In this document: positions 3,379 to 17,818 of the stretch, piece after piece
Numbering within the stretch: position 1 is the first letter of the stretch
Layout: the number at the start of each line of letters is the position of its first letter
Virus record (IMG/VR): IMGVR_UViG_3300049783_000444
Location: 1-22,225 of that record
Source: a virus
Length of the DNA: 22,225 nucleotides
Direction: 5' to 3' (one strand)
The notes under the pieces: generated by a model
What the model was told of the DNA's origin: nothing
Databases searched by the model: none
The model's input: only the letters and a program-made list of their open reading frames with translations
Translations under genes and position numbers: made by a program

Positions 3379-5117
3379 CTGAACTGAGGAATCAACCATG
3401 CCCACACCTAGAATGTGGATCATCTGATGCCTTCGGGTTTGACCCAGACAAAGGTTATGGCGGATGCTTCTCTTGCGGCAATGGCTACCCTAGCAAGGGA
3501 ATGACAATACATGGGTGGGCTAAGGATAAATACCCATTGAAACCTATGAAGCCTCGTGCTGTTGGGGACTCACCATGGGAGACTAAAGAAGAACAAGAGG
3601 CAAACAACTATTGGGATAATTACGTGATGGACACAGATGATATTGATGAGATTGCAGATGTACTTGAGGAGGATGTCTATGAGGCAGTTGGATTTGTCAA
3701 AGAAGCTAAGGTATCAGATAGAAATATCCTTAGTAGCACTTTCAAACACTTCGGTGTTCAGGTGTATACAGATGACAATGATGTAGTAATTAAGCATGTG
3801 TATCCTTACCCAGCAGGGGGTACCAAGACACGCCTATGTCTACACAAGAAACCTAAGAAGTTCCCTTGTGATGGTGACATCAGCAGTCTCTTCGGCCTTA
3901 ACTTGTTTCCACCCTCTAGTAGTCGTCAAGTGACTGTGACTGAGGGTGAATGTGATGCTATGGCAGTCTGGCAGATGATCCAAGGGGGAGGCTATACTAA
4001 CCCAGTGGTGTCAGTCCCTAGTGCTACAGTTGGTGCTAAGGTATGGGCTAATGTTAAGAGCTACCTTGATAGCTTCGATAAGATCATCCTGAGTGTTGAT
4101 AATGATAAGGCTGGTAATGAACTAGCTGAGACTATGGCTAAGATGTTCTTGGGTAAGGTCTACAGGGTCAATCATGGCCTACACAAGGATGCTAATGACT
4201 TCCTTATGGCTGGGCAAGGGGATGCTTTTAAGAAGGCTTGGTGGGCAGCTAAGAAGGTCAAAGATGAGAGCATCCTGAGTAATCCTGATGACTACATCAA
4301 TCTATACAAAGAAAGCCCTGACTTCGAGTATTTCAAGACGGGTATTCCTGAGTTAGATCGTAAGATGCTGGGGATTTGCAAAGGGTATATCACTCTGATT
4401 CAATCTCCTACAGGTCTTGGGAAGTCTGAGGTTATGCGGTATCTGGAGTATCAACTACTGAAGAACTCAGACTATCGTGTAGCATCATGTCGTAAGGAGG
4501 AGCCAAAGGTTCGTTCACTGCTAGGTCTAGTGTCATATGACTTGGGTACTAATGTTACACTTAAGAAGTTCATTGATGAGAAGGGCCTAGATGATGAGGT
4601 ACAGGAGTCTATCACTAGCCTGACACAGGATGAACGCTTTGTAACCTTTAGTATTGATGAGACACAGACTAATGATGAAACTATGTCACAGTTGAATTAC
4701 CTAATCTCAGCTATGGATATTGACTACTTGTTTATCGAGCCAATTCAGGATATCGTATCTGGAGCTAATGCTAGTGAGAAGGAAGGGAAGCTATCTGATC
4801 TATTCACTCGTATGGGTAACATGTGTGGTGATACTGGGGTTGGTATCGTAGTTATCGCACATGAAAACACACAGGGGGGTGCTATGTATTCCTCTATGAT
4901 TACTAAGAAGGCTGGTTTCAAGATTATCCTAAGGGGTGACAGAGAGAGTGATGACCCTACGGAGCGCAACAGAACTTATGTTGAGATTAAGGAAAAGAAT
5001 CGTACAGGGCTAGGGTTTGGACCTGCTGGGGCTGTTGACTTCGACATAGAAACGTATATGTTAACACCAGTGGTTCATCATGAGCCGCCTACACCAGACA
5101 AAACAGGAGGTTGGTGA
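3375..5117 (+). CDS. Primase-helicase (T7 gp4-like)
   Basis: A bifunctional replication protein of 580 residues. It makes RNA primers and unwinds the fork ahead of the family A polymerase. The N-terminal zinc module has C9, C14, C31 and C34. The TOPRIM primase fold shows EGECD (190-194) and DND (242-244). The RecA-like helicase domain begins near TGIPELDRKM, with Walker A SPTGLGKS (344-351), a Walker B-like DYLFIEPIQDI, and the late elements VVIAHENTQG and a Gln/Arg-rich C-terminal part ending near EKNRTGLGF. Its length is close to T7 gp4 (566). It begins in an ATGA overlap with the DUF1737 gene. The DnaB-family helicase assignment is from these motifs. Confidence 0.95.
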   Translation: MTELRNQPCPHLECGSSDAFGFDPDKGYGGCFSCGNGYPSKGMTIHGWAKDKYPLKPMKPRAVGDSPWETKEEQEANNYWDNYVMDTDDIDEIADVLEEDVYEAVGFVKEAKVSDRNILSSTFKHFGVQVYTDDNDVVIKHVYPYPAGGTKTRLCLHKKPKKFPCDGDISSLFGLNLFPPSSSRQVTVTEGECDAMAVWQMIQGGGYTNPVVSVPSATVGAKVWANVKSYLDSFDKIILSVDNDKAGNELAETMAKMFLGKVYRVNHGLHKDANDFLMAGQGDAFKKAWWAAKKVKDESILSNPDDYINLYKESPDFEYFKTGIPELDRKMLGICKGYITLIQSPTGLGKSEVMRYLEYQLLKNSDYRVASCRKEEPKVRSLLGLVSYDLGTNVTLKKFIDEKGLDDEVQESITSLTQDERFVTFSIDETQTNDETMSQLNYLISAMDIDYLFIEPIQDIVSGANASEKEGKLSDLFTRMGNMCGDTGVGIVVIAHENTQGGAMYSSMITKKAGFKIILRGDRESDDPTERNRTYVEIKEKNRTGLGFGPAGAVDFDIETYMLTPVVHHEPPTPDKTGGW

Positions 5118-5808: not shown

Positions 5809-6300
5809 ATGACTAAGAAGGTAGTAGTGATTGACACAGAAGGCGATGGACTATCTCATGATGCTACTATCTTTCACGTCATGGGTTGGACATATGATGG
5901 GTTGACAGTGGAGACTACCCACAGTGAGTTTCACATGAAGTGTATGCTGGAGGAATGGCTACGGGATGACTACAAGATTGTCATTCATAATGCCATGAGA
6001 CATGATGTGTCACTCTTCATGAGGGTACTTGATATCCACCTGCCAGTTAGTTCCTATGTAGATACTCTGGCATTATCATGGACACTAAATCATGATAAGT
6101 CTAAACATGGCCTAGGGGAATATGGGGAATACTTCGGTGTACCTAAGCCTGATGTGGAGTTCTGGAGTATTCAAGAGGGACAGACACAAGATGAGTTTCA
6201 GGAGATCATGCGCAATCGTGTGACTGAGGATGTGAAGATCAACTGGATGCTATGGAAACAACTAGAGGGTAAGTTAGGAGAGCTTTATGGGACTATCTAA
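5809..6300 (+). CDS. Free-standing 3'-5' exonuclease of a split DNA polymerase
   Basis: A DnaQ-like proofreading domain of 163 residues. Exo I is DTEGDG, with D9 and E11. Exo II is HNAMRHD, with D66. A VDTLALS block (84-90) and a GLGEYGEYFG region follow. Exo III is RVTED with the acidic D141. The usual Exo III Tyr, four residues before the Asp, is replaced by Arg137. The four metal-binding acidic residues expected from T7 polymerase (D5, E7, D65, D174) all have counterparts. The order and content match the N-terminal part of T7-type family A polymerase, whose polymerase domain here is a separate gene at 7361. It most likely acts with that polymerase as a proofreading partner. Confidence 0.88.
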   Translation: MTKKVVVIDTEGDGLSHDATIFHVMGWTYDGLTVETTHSEFHMKCMLEEWLRDDYKIVIHNAMRHDVSLFMRVLDIHLPVSSYVDTLALSWTLNHDKSKHGLGEYGEYFGVPKPDVEFWSIQEGQTQDEFQEIMRNRVTEDVKINWMLWKQLEGKLGELYGTI

Positions 6301-7360: not shown

Positions 7361-8980
7361 ATGACCCATGATCGCAAGAGTAACCTACATGATGACGCAT
7401 GGAAATACTGTGCTTACCTAAGCTTCAAGATGGACTGCGCTAGAGAGCAAGAGGAGGTACGCTGGTCCTTCCTACGTGATAAGGCACAGGGGCACTTCGA
7501 TGACCTCACAGTGCAGCAAGGGGCTAAGACTACTGAGCTTGCAAAGGCTATGCCTAAGAAGGCTGTCACTAGAATTGCTACTATGCCTAAGGAGATGTTT
7601 AACCAAGCTGTGACTAAGGTTGTGACTAAGCCTAAGTCTATGTACAAAGCTGATGGTACTCTTAGTGTAATGGGCACCAAGTGGAATCATCTGCTGGATA
7701 GCATGTCATTACCTAGGGATACTACGGACCCTATCACTGTTGAGGTTAAACCTGAGACACCATCACTTAACTCCTACAAATGGTATCACTTGCTCAAGTC
7801 GGAGAACATGCCAAGTGATACTGTAGGGCCTATCACAGTGGTAACTGGGTATGTCGATGGCAACCCTAAGGGTCATGCTCAAGTTAAGGCATGGTTATAC
7901 TCTTTGAATTGGGTCCCGTGTACCTTTAAGCACTCACGGGATGACGATGGTGAGCCTAAGGTGATTGAGCAGATCAGGTATATCAAGGGACATGACAGGG
8001 AGGGTGAACTATGTGATAGCGTCAAGAGACTAGCTAAGAAAGACCCAGCAGTAGATGTCCTAGATGGCCTCACTGTATTAACACACAGGCTGGGGTTCTT
8101 TAAGAGTATGCTTGAGAATTGTGTAGTAGATAACGATGGGTCTACATGGTTACGTGCTGAGGTAGGTGGGCTGACGAATACACTGAGGTTTAAGCATAAG
8201 AAGCCTCTAGCTAACCTACCAGCAGTTGGCAAGGCATGGGGTCAGGAGATACGAGATTGTCTAGTGGTACCTAATGAAAAGACTCAGGTACTCTGTGGGT
8301 TTGATATGGTGTCATTGGAAAGCACCACTAAGAAGCACTACATGTATCCTCATGATCCAGCCTATGTTGATGAGATGTCTACAGAGGGATTTGATGAGCA
8401 TTTGGACCTAGCTAAACACGCAGGGTACATCACACAGGTGGATATTGATGAGTATGCACAGGGTACACGACCAGATGTTAAGGAGGTACGTTCTAAGTTT
8501 AAGCCAGCGAACTACGCATGTGTTTACGGCGTGAAGGAGACTACGTTATCTCGACAGACTGGCATGAAGAAAGCTGAGTGTGTCACACTAATCAATGCCT
8601 ATTGGGATCGCAACTGGGCAGTCAAAGCTGTGGCGAAGGGTATCTTCACTAAAGAGACCAAGGATGGCAAGAAATGGCTCAAGAATCCAGTGTCAGGCTT
8701 CTGGTATTCACTGCGATACGATAAGGATATCTGGAGTACAACCAACCAAGGTACAGGTGTCTATTGCTTTGACAAGATGATTGCCATTGTGAGGGGCAAG
8801 GGAATTAAGTTCAACGGACAGTTTCATGATGAGGGGGCATATGCTGTTACTAAGGGTGCGGAGGATGATAACGATAAGCTGCTCAGGTCTTGCGTAGATA
8901 AGCTAAACGATCAACTAAAGTTAAACGTGCCATTAGATATTGATTCACAATATGGGGCAACTTATGGGGGTGTACACTAA
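7361..8980 (+). CDS. Family A DNA polymerase lacking the exonuclease domain
   Basis: The replicative polymerase in 539 residues, against about 704 for T7 gp5; the missing part is the exonuclease encoded at 5809. Motif A is FDMVSLES, with D315. Motif B is R377-x3-K381-x3-Y385 with YG at 389-390, exactly the O-helix spacing. Motif C is HDE at 489-491. The N-terminal 165 residues hold repeats: KKAVTRIATMPKEMF then NQAVTKVVTKPKSMY (66-95), and a 21-residue unit at 107-127 recurring at 140-160. Residues about 164-205 (VDGNPKGHAQVKAWLYSLNW) match the start of the thumb in related enzymes. The start follows AAGGAG at 7349-7354. The protein ends DIDSQYGATYGGVH. Confidence 0.95.
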   Translation: MTHDRKSNLHDDAWKYCAYLSFKMDCAREQEEVRWSFLRDKAQGHFDDLTVQQGAKTTELAKAMPKKAVTRIATMPKEMFNQAVTKVVTKPKSMYKADGTLSVMGTKWNHLLDSMSLPRDTTDPITVEVKPETPSLNSYKWYHLLKSENMPSDTVGPITVVTGYVDGNPKGHAQVKAWLYSLNWVPCTFKHSRDDDGEPKVIEQIRYIKGHDREGELCDSVKRLAKKDPAVDVLDGLTVLTHRLGFFKSMLENCVVDNDGSTWLRAEVGGLTNTLRFKHKKPLANLPAVGKAWGQEIRDCLVVPNEKTQVLCGFDMVSLESTTKKHYMYPHDPAYVDEMSTEGFDEHLDLAKHAGYITQVDIDEYAQGTRPDVKEVRSKFKPANYACVYGVKETTLSRQTGMKKAECVTLINAYWDRNWAVKAVAKGIFTKETKDGKKWLKNPVSGFWYSLRYDKDIWSTTNQGTGVYCFDKMIAIVRGKGIKFNGQFHDEGAYAVTKGAEDDNDKLLRSCVDKLNDQLKLNVPLDIDSQYGATYGGVH

Positions 8981-9287: not shown

Positions 9288-9793
9288 TGGCTATTATTAA
9301 AATCGAAGGCATCCCTATCAAGTGGGCAAAAATGACTGAGGATGACCGAGACATGGGGCCTGAGGATGGCTCAGATGTAGCTCTTAAGATCGAAGCAAAA
9401 CAGGGGCAATACACAGTTGACCTCATGTTGAGCGCCGAGAAGAAAGCTGAGTTTATTGCTGCGGGTATCCCGACTAAAGGTCTCGTAGGGCAGAACTATA
9501 AGAAAGACAAGAATGGCGAAGATTACTACTATGCTAAAGCACCGCACTTTAATCCGTTGTTCAAAGACCCAGCCACAGGTGAGCAAGGAGTTCTCATTGG
9601 ACCACCTAAGATTTGGCAGACAGTAGATGGTGAAGTAGTACCTTGGGTAATCTCTGATCATGGTAAGCTAGGGAATGGTACAGTGGTTACAGCGAAGTTC
9701 AATGTGTATAAGCAGTCGATTGTGCAGTTGATTGGCCTGATGATTGAAGAGCATGTGCCTTTTGAAGGTGGTGGTGATGATGGCGGGTGGTGA
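9287..9793 (+). CDS. Single-stranded DNA-binding protein (T7 gp2.5-like)
   Basis: A protein of 168 residues placed between the polymerase and the 5'-3' exonuclease. It has a beta-rich body (IEGIPIKWAKM, VALKIEAKQGQYTVDLMLS, GNGTVVTAKFNVYKQ) typical of an OB fold, and an acidic glycine-rich tail ending GGGDDGGW. T7 gp2.5 and other SSBs end in an acidic tail with a terminal aromatic residue that contacts polymerase and helicase; here the residue is Trp rather than Phe. The family also conserves the YYYAKAPHFNP stretch around residues 80-91 in my reading. It would coat single strands and coordinate the replisome. Confidence 0.85.
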   Translation: MAIIKIEGIPIKWAKMTEDDRDMGPEDGSDVALKIEAKQGQYTVDLMLSAEKKAEFIAAGIPTKGLVGQNYKKDKNGEDYYYAKAPHFNPLFKDPATGEQGVLIGPPKIWQTVDGEVVPWVISDHGKLGNGTVVTAKFNVYKQSIVQLIGLMIEEHVPFEGGGDDGGW

Positions 9794-9794
9794 T

Positions 9795-9944
9795 ATGGTA
9801 GAGGATCAAGTGACTATCCCTAAGAAATACTATGATGATCTTAGGGAGGCTTACTTTTGGCTTCAAGCACTAGAAAGTGCTGGTGTAGACAACTGGGATG
9901 GCATTAGCTTTGCCCAAGAACTTTTAGGGGATAACAACCAATGA
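9795..9944 (+). CDS. Conserved small protein (49 aa)
   Basis: The chosen ATG at 9795 is one base after the SSB stop; an in-frame ATG at 9780 inside the SSB tail is possible. The pattern VTIPKKYYDDLREAYFWLQALESAGVDNWDG..FA matches a common small phage protein (ALxxAGVDNWxG), predicted to be a helical hairpin. The function is unknown. It ends in an ATGA overlap with the next gene. Confidence 0.7.
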   Translation: MVEDQVTIPKKYYDDLREAYFWLQALESAGVDNWDGISFAQELLGDNNQ

Positions 9945-10174
9945 CTACAATTACAATCACAAGCGTACCAAGCCCTGAGGATAAAGCACTGGGGTTTGAA
10001 CCAACGGTACTGCTATCATTTGATGATGTAGATGATGCTGTTGCGTTGGCCTATGTCTTCTCAGTGGCGTCACGTGCCATCGGGTATACATACATTGATA
10101 GCTGTATCCTGATGGATACTAATGACACTACTTGGGACTCTGAGGAGTTCATGGGTACAACCTTTGAGGAATAA
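9941..10174 (+). CDS. Hypothetical acidic protein (77 aa)
   Basis: Begins in an ATGA overlap. The 77-residue protein is strongly acidic (FDDVDDAV, TNDTTWDSEEF, FEE at the end) and probably mixes strands (TITITSVPS) with one helix (AVALAYVFSVASRAIG). No family is recognised. A DNA-mimic role is possible for a protein this acidic, but nothing shows it. Its last bases include a 14-base word repeated at the end of the next gene. Confidence 0.7.
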   Translation: MTTITITSVPSPEDKALGFEPTVLLSFDDVDDAVALAYVFSVASRAIGYTYIDSCILMDTNDTTWDSEEFMGTTFEE

Positions 10175-13176: not shown

Positions 13177-13945
13177 AACATATATCATTGCCCCTGACCC
13201 ACATGCTCATCCAGACTTTAGTAATGAGAGGGCTGACTGGTTAGGCAAGTTGATACTAGACATACGCCCTGATGTTGTAGTTAACATGGGTGACACTTTT
13301 GACATGCCTAGTTTAAGCTCCTTTGACAAAGGTAAGGCTTCCTTCCAAGGTGCTTCTTATGAGAAAGATATCAACTCAGGTATTGACTTCCTAGACCGCA
13401 TGTGGCACCCTATTCGCAAGGCCAAGAAGAAGAAACCGAAGTCTGTGTATCTGTATGCAAACCACGAACGCCGTTTAGATAAGGTACTAGAGTATCAGCC
13501 TGAGTTGAGCGGGAGTAAGTATGGGATCAGTAAAAAAGACTATTGCTTAGATGACTATCACAATGTCGTGGTAGATTATAACGGGCAAACCCCCGGAATT
13601 TATCAATCTGATGGCATTAACTTTGCACACTTTATGGTATCAGGTGTGATGGGTCGTCCCATTGGTGGGGATAATGCTGCTAGGACCCTTTTGTCTAAGA
13701 CCCATTCATCTTGTATCGTTGCTCATTCTCATTTGGTGGATTATGCTGTTCATTCAAGTCCAGATGGTAAAAAGACTATGGGTCTTGTCGCAGGAGTTTA
13801 CACAGACTACCAATCACCTTGGGCTGGCAATGTCCAAAACCTGTGGTGGTCAGGCGTACAAATACTACGGTCTGTTGAAGGTGGCACCTTTGATCCTAGT
13901 TTCATCAGCCTTGAGGCGTTACGGAGGGAATATGGGCAAACGTGA
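13166..13945 (+). CDS. Calcineurin-like metallophosphoesterase
   Basis: A two-metal phosphoesterase of 259 residues. The motifs, in order, are PDPHAH (D11, H13), NMGDTFD (D43 and D46), ANHER (N99, H100, E101) and AHSH (H187, H189). This is the metallophosphoesterase set with NHE in place of GNHE and AHSH in place of GHSH. Phage members are placed near DNA metabolism genes; the substrate (nucleotide, 2',3'-cyclic phosphate, DNA end) cannot be read from sequence. AGGAA lies nine bases before the start. It overlaps the methyltransferase gene by 14 bases. Confidence 0.85.
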   Translation: MKSKTYIIAPDPHAHPDFSNERADWLGKLILDIRPDVVVNMGDTFDMPSLSSFDKGKASFQGASYEKDINSGIDFLDRMWHPIRKAKKKKPKSVYLYANHERRLDKVLEYQPELSGSKYGISKKDYCLDDYHNVVVDYNGQTPGIYQSDGINFAHFMVSGVMGRPIGGDNAARTLLSKTHSSCIVAHSHLVDYAVHSSPDGKKTMGLVAGVYTDYQSPWAGNVQNLWWSGVQILRSVEGGTFDPSFISLEALRREYGQT

Positions 13946-14480
13946 AACTGTAAAGAAACCTAAGTCACCACGAGACTTCTATGCTACAATTGATCCTGAT
14001 GCTGTTAAACCTCTAATACCTTTTCTTGCTGACTACATTACATATGCTGAACCTTGTGTTGGCAATGGTGATTTGGTTAAACAAATGAGTGCGTATGGTT
14101 TACAATGTTGTCACACGAGTGATATCTCATCAGATCAATACCAAGAGTGGGACGCTTCAGATATACCTCTTGAATTTCTATTAGCGTATGGCCCAGATTG
14201 CATTATTACTAACCCGCCATTTTCTAAGGCTCTGCTACTGCCTATTATGGATCACCTCATGTGTTCTGGGTTACCACTATGGTTGCTACTACCAGCGGAT
14301 ATCATGCACAATAAATACATGAGTCCATACATGAGGAAGTGCAAGACAGTTGTATCAGTGGGTCGCTTATGCTGGTTTCCAGATGAGGTTACAGGTAAGA
14401 TGGTCAAAGGGGTTGACAACTATCAATGGATGGAGTTCGTAAGCTATGAAACACCAACAACATTCCACGGAAGGATGTAA
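13932..14480 (+). CDS. DNA adenine methyltransferase-like protein
   Basis: The start at 13932 (MGKRETVKKP) is set by GGAGGG just upstream; the frame is open further left to 13662, but that part lies inside the phosphoesterase gene. The product has 182 residues. It has the SAM-binding motif YAEPCVGNGDL (E40 to L48) and catalytic NPPF (94-97), followed by LWLLLPADIMHN and VVSVGRLCWFPDE. These are hallmarks of an N6-adenine (or N4-cytosine) class I methyltransferase. It is short, with no recognisable target-recognition domain. It could protect phage DNA from host restriction, but the target sequence is unknown. Confidence 0.8.
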   Translation: MGKRETVKKPKSPRDFYATIDPDAVKPLIPFLADYITYAEPCVGNGDLVKQMSAYGLQCCHTSDISSDQYQEWDASDIPLEFLLAYGPDCIITNPPFSKALLLPIMDHLMCSGLPLWLLLPADIMHNKYMSPYMRKCKTVVSVGRLCWFPDEVTGKMVKGVDNYQWMEFVSYETPTTFHGRM

Positions 14481-14481
14481 T

Positions 14482-14922
14482 ATGACTACTAGAGCAGCTA
14501 AACTACAGGAGGACTTGTTTCCATTGCCTGTGTATCTCAAGACAACATATGAGATGGTACGAGAGTTTACTAAGGCTATGGGGCAACCGCTAGACGCAGA
14601 TATCTCTATTGAACAGGAGATTTATAACCTAGGTAACACTAGTGAGATTATGTCGTTACGCTACAGACTTATCGAAGAAGAAGTTGAGGAGTTCATGACC
14701 TCTGATAACTACGAGAATATGCTAAAGGAGCTAATGGATATCAAGTATGTCATCGATGGCTTCTGCGCTACCTTCGGGTGGGACGCTGATGAAGCTTTCT
14801 ATAGAGTGCATGAGAGTAACATGAGTAAGCTAGGGGACGATGGAAAGCCTGTGTATCGTGCAGATGGCAAGGTTACTAAGGGTCCTAACTACAAGCCATG
14901 TGACCTGAGTGACCTAGTATGA
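14482..14922 (+). CDS. MazG-like nucleotide pyrophosphohydrolase
   Basis: The start at 14482 follows GGAAGG (14469-14474) and lies one base after the preceding stop; an in-frame ATG at 14446 lies inside the methyltransferase. The product has 146 residues. The all-alpha pyrophosphohydrolase signature EExxE...ExxD is visible as RLIEEEVEEF (E66, E67, E70) and ELMDIKYVIDG (E83, D86), followed by DEAFYRVHESNMSKLG and the tail KVTKGPNYKPCDL. These enzymes hydrolyse nucleoside triphosphates to monophosphates. In phages they may clean up noncanonical dNTPs or alter (p)ppGpp levels; which applies here is unknown. The gene overlaps the next by four bases. Confidence 0.85.
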   Translation: MTTRAAKLQEDLFPLPVYLKTTYEMVREFTKAMGQPLDADISIEQEIYNLGNTSEIMSLRYRLIEEEVEEFMTSDNYENMLKELMDIKYVIDGFCATFGWDADEAFYRVHESNMSKLGDDGKPVYRADGKVTKGPNYKPCDLSDLV

Positions 14923-15092: not shown

Positions 15093-15230
15093 ATGATCAC
15101 AAAGTACATTGCCATATGGAAACACAGGAAACAAACACGTAAGGAACTAGAGTCATTGACAGACAGGGAGTTGTATGACATAGGTATCTTACGATGTAAC
15201 ATCAACAGAGTTGTAAAGGGATTAGACTAA
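15093..15230 (+). CDS. DUF1127-family small protein (45 aa)
   Basis: The 45-residue protein shows the complete DUF1127 pattern: a basic start (WKHRKQTRKEL), then SLTDRELYDIGILR, then an I-N-R-V end. In Alphaproteobacteria these small arginine-rich proteins are abundant. Rhodobacter CcaF1 of this family binds RNA and affects small-RNA maturation and RNA turnover. A phage copy might change host RNA decay or stress responses; that is inference. The start is three bases after the previous stop, with GAGGA just upstream. The gene shares one base with the next (TAATG). Confidence 0.8.
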   Translation: MITKYIAIWKHRKQTRKELESLTDRELYDIGILRCNINRVVKGLD

Positions 15231-15370
15231 TGGAACTATATATTATCGTAGCGGTTGTCTGTGCTGGCCTAGGCTATGCAATAGCAACTGAGGAGAATAA
15301 GGTCATGGGGACTATCCTAGGTGGATTGCTTGGGCCTATCGGTGTAATCGTTGCAGCTATCTTGAAATGA
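15230..15370 (+). CDS. Small membrane protein (46 aa)
   Basis: TAATG overlap with the DUF1127 gene, so probably co-translated with it. The 46 residues form two hydrophobic helices: about 3-19 (LYIIVAVVCAGLGYAIA) and 28-45 (TILGGLLGPIGVIVAAIL), joined by a charged turn (TEENKVM). The GLLGPIG turn recalls small bacterial and phage inner-membrane proteins of unknown function. No family is named. Confidence 0.65.
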   Translation: MELYIIVAVVCAGLGYAIATEENKVMGTILGGLLGPIGVIVAAILK

Positions 15371-17637: not shown

Positions 17638-17739
17638 GTTTGTACTAGTGATATAAGAGTTTAGTGGTGCCACAATAGTGAGGCTTGTGGTTAAATGGAG
17701 GTAAATGAGGAATCAGCAGCCACTACTTTAATAAACAGC

Positions 17740-17776
17740 AAAGGCCCAACACCTGCTTGACAAGTGTTGGGCCTTT
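17740..17776. terminator. 13-bp perfect hairpin after nrdJ
   Basis: AAAGGCCCAACAC (17740-17752) pairs perfectly with GTGTTGGGCCTTT (17764-17776) around an 11-base loop. The stem is very stable. The T run is only the TTT that ends the stem, with GTGTATCG after it, so as a rho-independent terminator it is incomplete. It may slow or end transcription after nrdJ, protect the mRNA 3' end, or act as an RNase processing site. The rest of 17638-17818 shows no convincing gene. Confidence 0.7.
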
Positions 17777-17818
17777 GTGTATCGTGAGTATATAGAATCA
17801 GTTACAGGAGAGAGACTA

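Follow-up and report, generated by a model that had tools for sequence, protein, structure and literature searches.

We analysed a 22,225-base stretch of viral DNA (the window), which is the full IMG/VR record IMGVR_UViG_3300049783_000444; a full record does not imply a complete genome. The window contains a run of genes on one strand in the order mazG, orf56, DUF1127, a gene for a protein with two predicted membrane segments (the 2TM protein), orf65 and nrdJ (Table 1). The DUF1127 reading frame is intact, from the ATG at 15093 to a stop codon that ends at 15230. A ribosome-site-like GAGG stretch lies a few bases before the ATG (tatagaggataaacaATG). The predicted product is MITKYIAIWKHRKQTRKELESLTDRELYDIGILRCNINRVVKGLD.

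Table 1. Genes and other features in and around the mazG-nrdJ run of the window.
Feature	Position	Strand	Evidence and remarks
DNA-methyltransferase-like gene, before mazG	13776-14480	+	phrog_799, E 6e-24; recurs beside the cassette in other loci
MazG-like nucleotide pyrophosphohydrolase, 146 aa, at the head of the cassette	14482-14922	+	PF01503, E 4e-8; phrog_671, E 4e-35
orf56, orphan, 56 aa	14919-15089	+	shares 4 bases (ATGA) with the end of mazG
DUF1127 protein, 45 aa	15093-15230	+	PF06568; phrog_26566; shuffle control; AlphaFold2 model
2TM protein, 46 aa, two predicted membrane segments	15230-15370	+	hydropathy; start overlaps the DUF1127 stop (TAATG)
orf65, orphan, 65 aa	15389-15586	+	3' end overlaps the start of nrdJ
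nrdJ, adenosylcobalamin-dependent (class II) ribonucleotide reductase, 684 aa	15583-17637	+	phrog_367, E 1e-179; PF02867, PF21995
Terminator-like hairpin, strong, 18-pair stem	17739-17777	.	about 100 bases past nrdJ; T-rich tail

We found that this reading frame encodes a genuine DUF1127 (YjiS-like) protein. A preliminary description of the window, made from its letters, had named it as such, and a profile search confirmed this: residues 9-36 matched positions 8-35 of the 37 in PF06568 with 36.7 bits (E 3.4e-9), compared to a curated cut-off of 23.3 bits. The score in a profile search of the whole record was 35.5 bits. The protein also matched PHROG 26566 (E 3.7e-7), a group of unknown function. 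As a control, we built a profile from other phage DUF1127 proteins alone and used it to score the window protein and shuffles of its residues. The window protein scored 54.6 bits, the best of 9,941 scored shuffles reached 10.8, and the next ORF of the window reached 7.4.

The protein has the features of a short DUF1127 protein, a class that consists of the domain only (about 45-54 residues). It contains the DREL-DIG-R-I core of the small, basic, arginine-rich members, and residues L19, D24, E26, L27, D29, G31, I32, R34 and I37 are invariant between it and its phage relatives. An AlphaFold2 model made from an alignment of 25 relatives (mean pLDDT 88.5) predicts a small helical fold, with a long helix (residues 2-21) and two short helices (24-29 and 34-41) that flank the DIG turn. 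No DUF1127 structure was found among solved structures, searched by sequence and by fold, and the family has been described as having none (PMC12501420). Among predicted viral structures (BFVD), the model resembled YjiS-like proteins of Agrobacterium phage Atu_ph07 and of uncultured Caudovirales (Foldseek probability 0.97-1.00, TMq 0.66-0.88). In contrast to the window, these belong to large or unrelated phages, and nrdJ is not beside the Atu_ph07 gene. The matching proteins carry no functional annotation.

The preliminary description had placed the gene in an operon between a MazG-like gene and nrdJ. The same-strand run bears this out, but the DUF1127 gene touches neither neighbor: three extra small ORFs are inserted, orf56 on the mazG side and the 2TM ORF and orf65 on the nrdJ side. 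The TAATG junction that it reported between DUF1127 and a 46-codon ORF with two hydrophobic segments is present. We found no family match for orf56 and none above cut-off for orf65, and neither had relatives in the viral contigs searched. The 2TM protein gave a sub-threshold match to the PF05433 glycine zipper (E 0.003). The hairpin past nrdJ is the probable end of the mazG-nrdJ run. It recalls the bidirectional terminator between the two arms of cobaviruses.

The window comes from a distant relative of the roseophages, judging from its primase/helicase and DNA polymerase. The closest relatives of the primase/helicase are in Roseobacter phages CRP-6, ICBM2, CRP-5 and CRP-4 (36-43% identity). 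The DNA polymerase is closest to those of an oyster-associated phage contig and CRP-6 (45-46%), followed by those of Pseudomonas and Salinivibrio phages (about 40%). From this relatedness, the hosts of the virus are probably alphaproteobacteria, and probably marine ones. The family A DNA polymerase is split in the window: exonuclease and polymerase parts are separate ORFs (5809-6300 and 7361-8980) that match adjoining ranges of phrog_17, with three small ORFs in between. The window also has a predicted tRNA at 612-683 on the + strand (Rfam, 38 bits; gathering threshold, 29), which is absent from ARAGORN output.

We surveyed DUF1127 in phage genomes, as the preliminary description had suggested, and found that a slot before nrdJ recurs. 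Among isolates, DUF1127 lies behind mazG and before nrdJ in P12053L, SIO1, ICBM1, CRP-4 and CRP-6 (Cobavirinae and relatives) and in CRP-403 (Autographiviridae); CRP-6 has one additional gene between DUF1127 and nrdJ. In CRP-5 and CRP-118 (Autographiviridae), DUF1127 is immediately upstream of nrdJ, judged from coordinates. The PF06568 cut-off was passed by 11 of the 12 phage records tested. The exception is ICBM2, in which mazG overlaps nrdJ directly with no DUF1127 between them. The DUF1127 genes in the isolate cassettes are annotated as hypothetical, and that of SIO1 has no annotation; it lies between gp19 and the ribonucleotide reductase gene (AF189021.1 20022-20132; positions 3501-3611 of locus L004).

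The slot is also frequent in uncultivated viruses. Of 77 IMG/VR loci found through nrdJ and with enough upstream sequence, 23 had DUF1127 upstream, 43 had mazG only, and 11 had neither. A search seeded with DUF1127 gave 77 new loci. DUF1127 was flanked by mazG and nrdJ in 45 of these, but this figure carries a bias, as many cassette sequences were in the alignment from which the search pattern was made. Of the others, one had mazG alone on the contig, 11 had nrdJ shortly upstream, and 20 had neither. Glutaredoxin and phoH genes often follow mazG, DUF1127 and nrdJ in the relatives. Their association with DUF1127 itself was weak or absent when tested: phoH occurred in 24/40 loci with DUF1127 and 11/34 without it (p 0.02), a weak effect that was gone after allowing for relatedness.

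Two other stretches in the collection are worth recording. In locus L037, a GIY-YIG-type homing endonuclease-like ORF (9520-9996) with an NrdJ-like N-terminus (MSNYLPTDYQSFI), recognized by eye, directly precedes nrdJ and looks like an insertion at the start of that gene. In CRP-13, a DUF1127-like stretch (MW514247.1 49328-49402; locus L286) precedes the small terminase gene. We considered whether this was a DUF1127 gene annotated as terminase small subunit and dropped the idea, as the stretch is within an unannotated gap and ends in the first bases of the terminase gene.

The packing of the cassettes might indicate that DUF1127 acts on its neighbors. A four-base overlap joins mazG to DUF1127 in 45/76 cassettes, and ATGA occurs at the DUF1127 stop in 48/76. 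Such overlaps on both sides would give synthesis matched to that of MazG and NrdJ. The small basic protein could then bind NrdJ, MazG or their mRNA and tune dNTP synthesis. Consistent with this, the linkage was not seen in cells: we examined 80 cellular DUF1127 loci, each up to about 8 kb long, and in no case was a relative of nrdJ or mazG nearby. However, 43 of the 66 loci with mazG and nrdJ lack DUF1127, and ICBM2 couples the two genes without it. Some phages also carry DUF1127 far from nrdJ, which means that the protein need not have a role tied to nucleotides, and the core motif kept in phages is that of cellular DUF1127 proteins without a ribonucleotide reductase neighbor. We therefore consider a direct action on NrdJ or MazG unlikely.

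We found that DUF1127 in the phage cassettes is under purifying selection. The median pairwise dN/dS was 0.20, and all usable pairs (201/201) were below 1. The gene is nonetheless dispensable. On the NrdJ tree, the presence of an upstream DUF1127 changed 22 times (best tree), with at least 13 changes on well-supported branches, although recombination of nrdJ itself could inflate this count. Thus, phage DUF1127 is a selected but accessory gene. These results bear on whether DUF1127 could be a passenger, that is, a host gene captured without a selected function. The copy in the window would fit such a history, as it is a diverged singleton that the tree does not put in the main phage lineage. 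In contrast, the selection within the phage lineage, the reuse of one slot across phage families with repeated gain and loss, and the intact frame and motif make a passenger very unlikely.

Most of the cassette proteins group together on a long branch (support 90/99), as a lineage specific to phages. They carry two signatures, TW..HR (57/59 proteins) and I[DN].[LM][VI]W..[ED] (52/59), each found in 0/86 cellular proteins. The proteins of SIO1, P12053L, CRP-4, CRP-6, ICBM1 and CRP-403 are about 58-66 residues long and have both signatures. The window protein shares with them the place between mazG and nrdJ and a score above the PF06568 cut-off. It differs in being only 45 residues long, with no C-terminal extension, and in lacking the signatures (IWKHR instead of TW..HR). 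In a tree based on 48 columns, it fell outside the phage lineage, among cellular and other phage sequences, but forcing it into the main phage lineage was not rejected with these 48 columns (AU test, p 0.48). Two histories are compatible with this: the copy in the window may belong to the main lineage and have been shortened, or it may have been captured separately into the same slot.

The preliminary description had further suggested that the DUF1127 protein and the coupled 2TM protein may form a unit. The 2TM protein might, for example, bring DUF1127 to a membrane kinase or transporter. The TAATG coupling in the window is consistent with this, and small membrane proteins are encoded directly behind DUF1127 elsewhere: in L037 and L046 (two related 2TM proteins whose genes begin before the DUF1127 gene has ended), in L111/L112, in L156/L157/L161/L167, and in CRP-7 and CRP-603. 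Among small genes behind DUF1127, 7/18 encode membrane proteins, compared to 96/1080 in the background (p 7e-4, uncorrected for relatedness). This excess is only a lead, since several of the seven are mutually related. In contrast, the 2TM protein of the window is an orphan: it had no relative in the phage collection, and a test for kinship with the 2TM protein of L046 found none that is recognizable. In most cassettes, nrdJ and not a membrane gene lies directly behind DUF1127, and in another lineage an acidic soluble protein takes that place. The case for the pair in the window is weak, and we think a membrane-tethered unit distinctly unlikely.

Two families of small coupled genes behind DUF1127 were seen in other loci. 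Where nrdJ lies upstream, an acidic protein of 53-68 residues (MSEEEQLDEMIxEMFE...DIFKxIFSDAVKMTI) is coupled behind DUF1127 (L105 4332-4514, L107 6156-6344, L108, L110, L118, L134, L147 and L158); it might bind the DUF1127 protein, which is basic. The genes coupled to DUF1127 in L156, L157, L161 and L167 encode a family of 64-78 residues with a single membrane segment and the motif GESAGRARAAAELxRQGYxEEA.

Few families of small bacterial proteins are as large as DUF1127. Its biochemistry is disputed, with RNA and sensor kinases as the proposed binding partners. CcaF1 of Rhodobacter binds many RNAs and, with RNase E, alters their stability (PMC10253847). In contrast, no RNA association was detected for YjiS of Salmonella, and single arginine and DIGL substitutions in YjiS were neutral in the phenotype assayed (PMC11707872). 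The sensor kinase PhoR is a binding partner of DUF1127 proteins from Agrobacterium and E. coli, and control of pstS in Agrobacterium is restored by members of the family from S. meliloti, R. sphaeroides (CcaF1) and E. coli (PMC12501420). YjiS is described as membrane-located and as binding the sensor kinase SsrA in the discussion of the same paper (PMC12501420).

The closest cellular parallels to the window protein include the short stand-alone proteins SDP1-3 of Agrobacterium tumefaciens and YjiS of E. coli and Salmonella (47-54 residues), which have the same DREL-DIG core. They differ in being chromosomal, outside phage operons, and in having experimental binding to PhoR (and to SsrA for Salmonella YjiS). 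CcaF1 (RSP_6037 of Rhodobacter sphaeroides, 71 residues) has the common core, is small and basic, and comes from a possible host family. Unlike the window protein, it is cellular and longer, is co-transcribed with CcsR sRNAs, has experimental RNA binding, and is in no nucleotide operon.

The preliminary description had proposed that the phage copy gives direct control of host RNA turnover. A factor of the CcaF1 type would bind host or phage RNAs and steer RNase E, so that decay of host transcripts feeds NrdJ, or it would act in maturation of regulatory RNAs. The example of CcaF1, a Rhodobacter relative from the likely host family with RNA binding and an effect with RNase E (PMC10253847), speaks for this, as does the context of a nucleotide-recycling operon (MazG, NrdJ, PhoH). 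The window protein is 11% arginine with a net charge of +4, and in both properties the phage proteins resemble cellular DUF1127 proteins, yet these properties do not separate the models. Against it are the results with YjiS, which showed no association with RNA and tolerated the arginine and DIGL substitutions (PMC11707872), and the activity of CcaF1 in the PhoR pathway as well (PMC12501420). An Rfam scan of the window recognized no known sRNA family beside the gene, the sole match being the tRNA far off at 612-683. Where CcaF1 has CcsR sRNAs, the intervals behind DUF1127 in the window are filled by the 2TM ORF, orf65 and nrdJ. A host-directed role is plausible, because the gene is in the mazG-nrdJ operon and is kept by selection in many related phages. 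Nothing in the sequence tells RNA binding and kinase binding apart, and we consider direct control of host RNA turnover possible but rather doubtful.

Conservation of the slot in related phages suggests that the protein is used in adjusting host phosphate or RNA management during replication. Based on these results, we tentatively propose that phage DUF1127 is a mimic of a host regulator that tunes phosphate or nucleotide supply, likeliest through a sensor kinase such as PhoR; we regard this as a fair possibility, short of probable. We slightly favor the sensor-kinase route because this activity was common to all DUF1127 proteins in the Agrobacterium complementation and because it fits an operon for nucleotides and phosphorus. 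The alphaproteobacterial genomes tested contain 3-8 copies of DUF1127, and in each a single kinase stands out as phoR-like, with scores (280-330 bits) just below the curated 334. With such genes, the target network would be present in hosts of this kind.

In the mechanism that we propose, DUF1127 would be an accessory member of the phage dNTP-supply operon, made together with MazG and NrdJ. The protein would imitate or compete with the host's own short DUF1127 proteins and dock on a sensor kinase in the membrane, at an acidic surface that faces the cytoplasm, with PhoR as the best candidate. The host phosphate response might thereby be shifted during the burst of nucleotide synthesis. The direction of the effect must be assumed, since the DUF1127 proteins known to date act as repressors of phosphate uptake, and a phage would not obviously benefit from such repression. 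PhoR might be held in its phosphatase state, so that the starvation program is not triggered. Alternatively, host DUF1127 copies might be displaced, so that uptake stays on.

We also entertain a broader scenario, which we consider rather doubtful. Alphaproteobacterial phages may have repeatedly recruited DUF1127, as a central node of host control, into the dNTP operon to command a host sensor kinase (phosphate control), some lineages with a dedicated small membrane partner, and the window would then be an independent second recruitment to that slot.

The window protein adds a member to a known family. Phage DUF1127 proteins are already in databases under DUF1127 or YjiS-like names, and some are grouped in PHROG 26566. 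In the published open-access papers that we searched, we found no paper treating phage DUF1127 proteins and no experiment on any of them. Papers on cobaviruses and Autographiviridae roseophages discuss MazG, ribonucleotide reductase, glutaredoxin and PhoH, with DUF1127 unmentioned. As far as searched, a selected phage DUF1127 lineage in a fixed operon slot is undescribed. Such a gene, present also in culturable roseophages, could offer an independent test of the activity of the domain on the Pho regulon, RNA decay and dNTP pools. With it, a regulatory gene would join the recognized toolkit of phages for phosphorus and nucleotides in the ocean.
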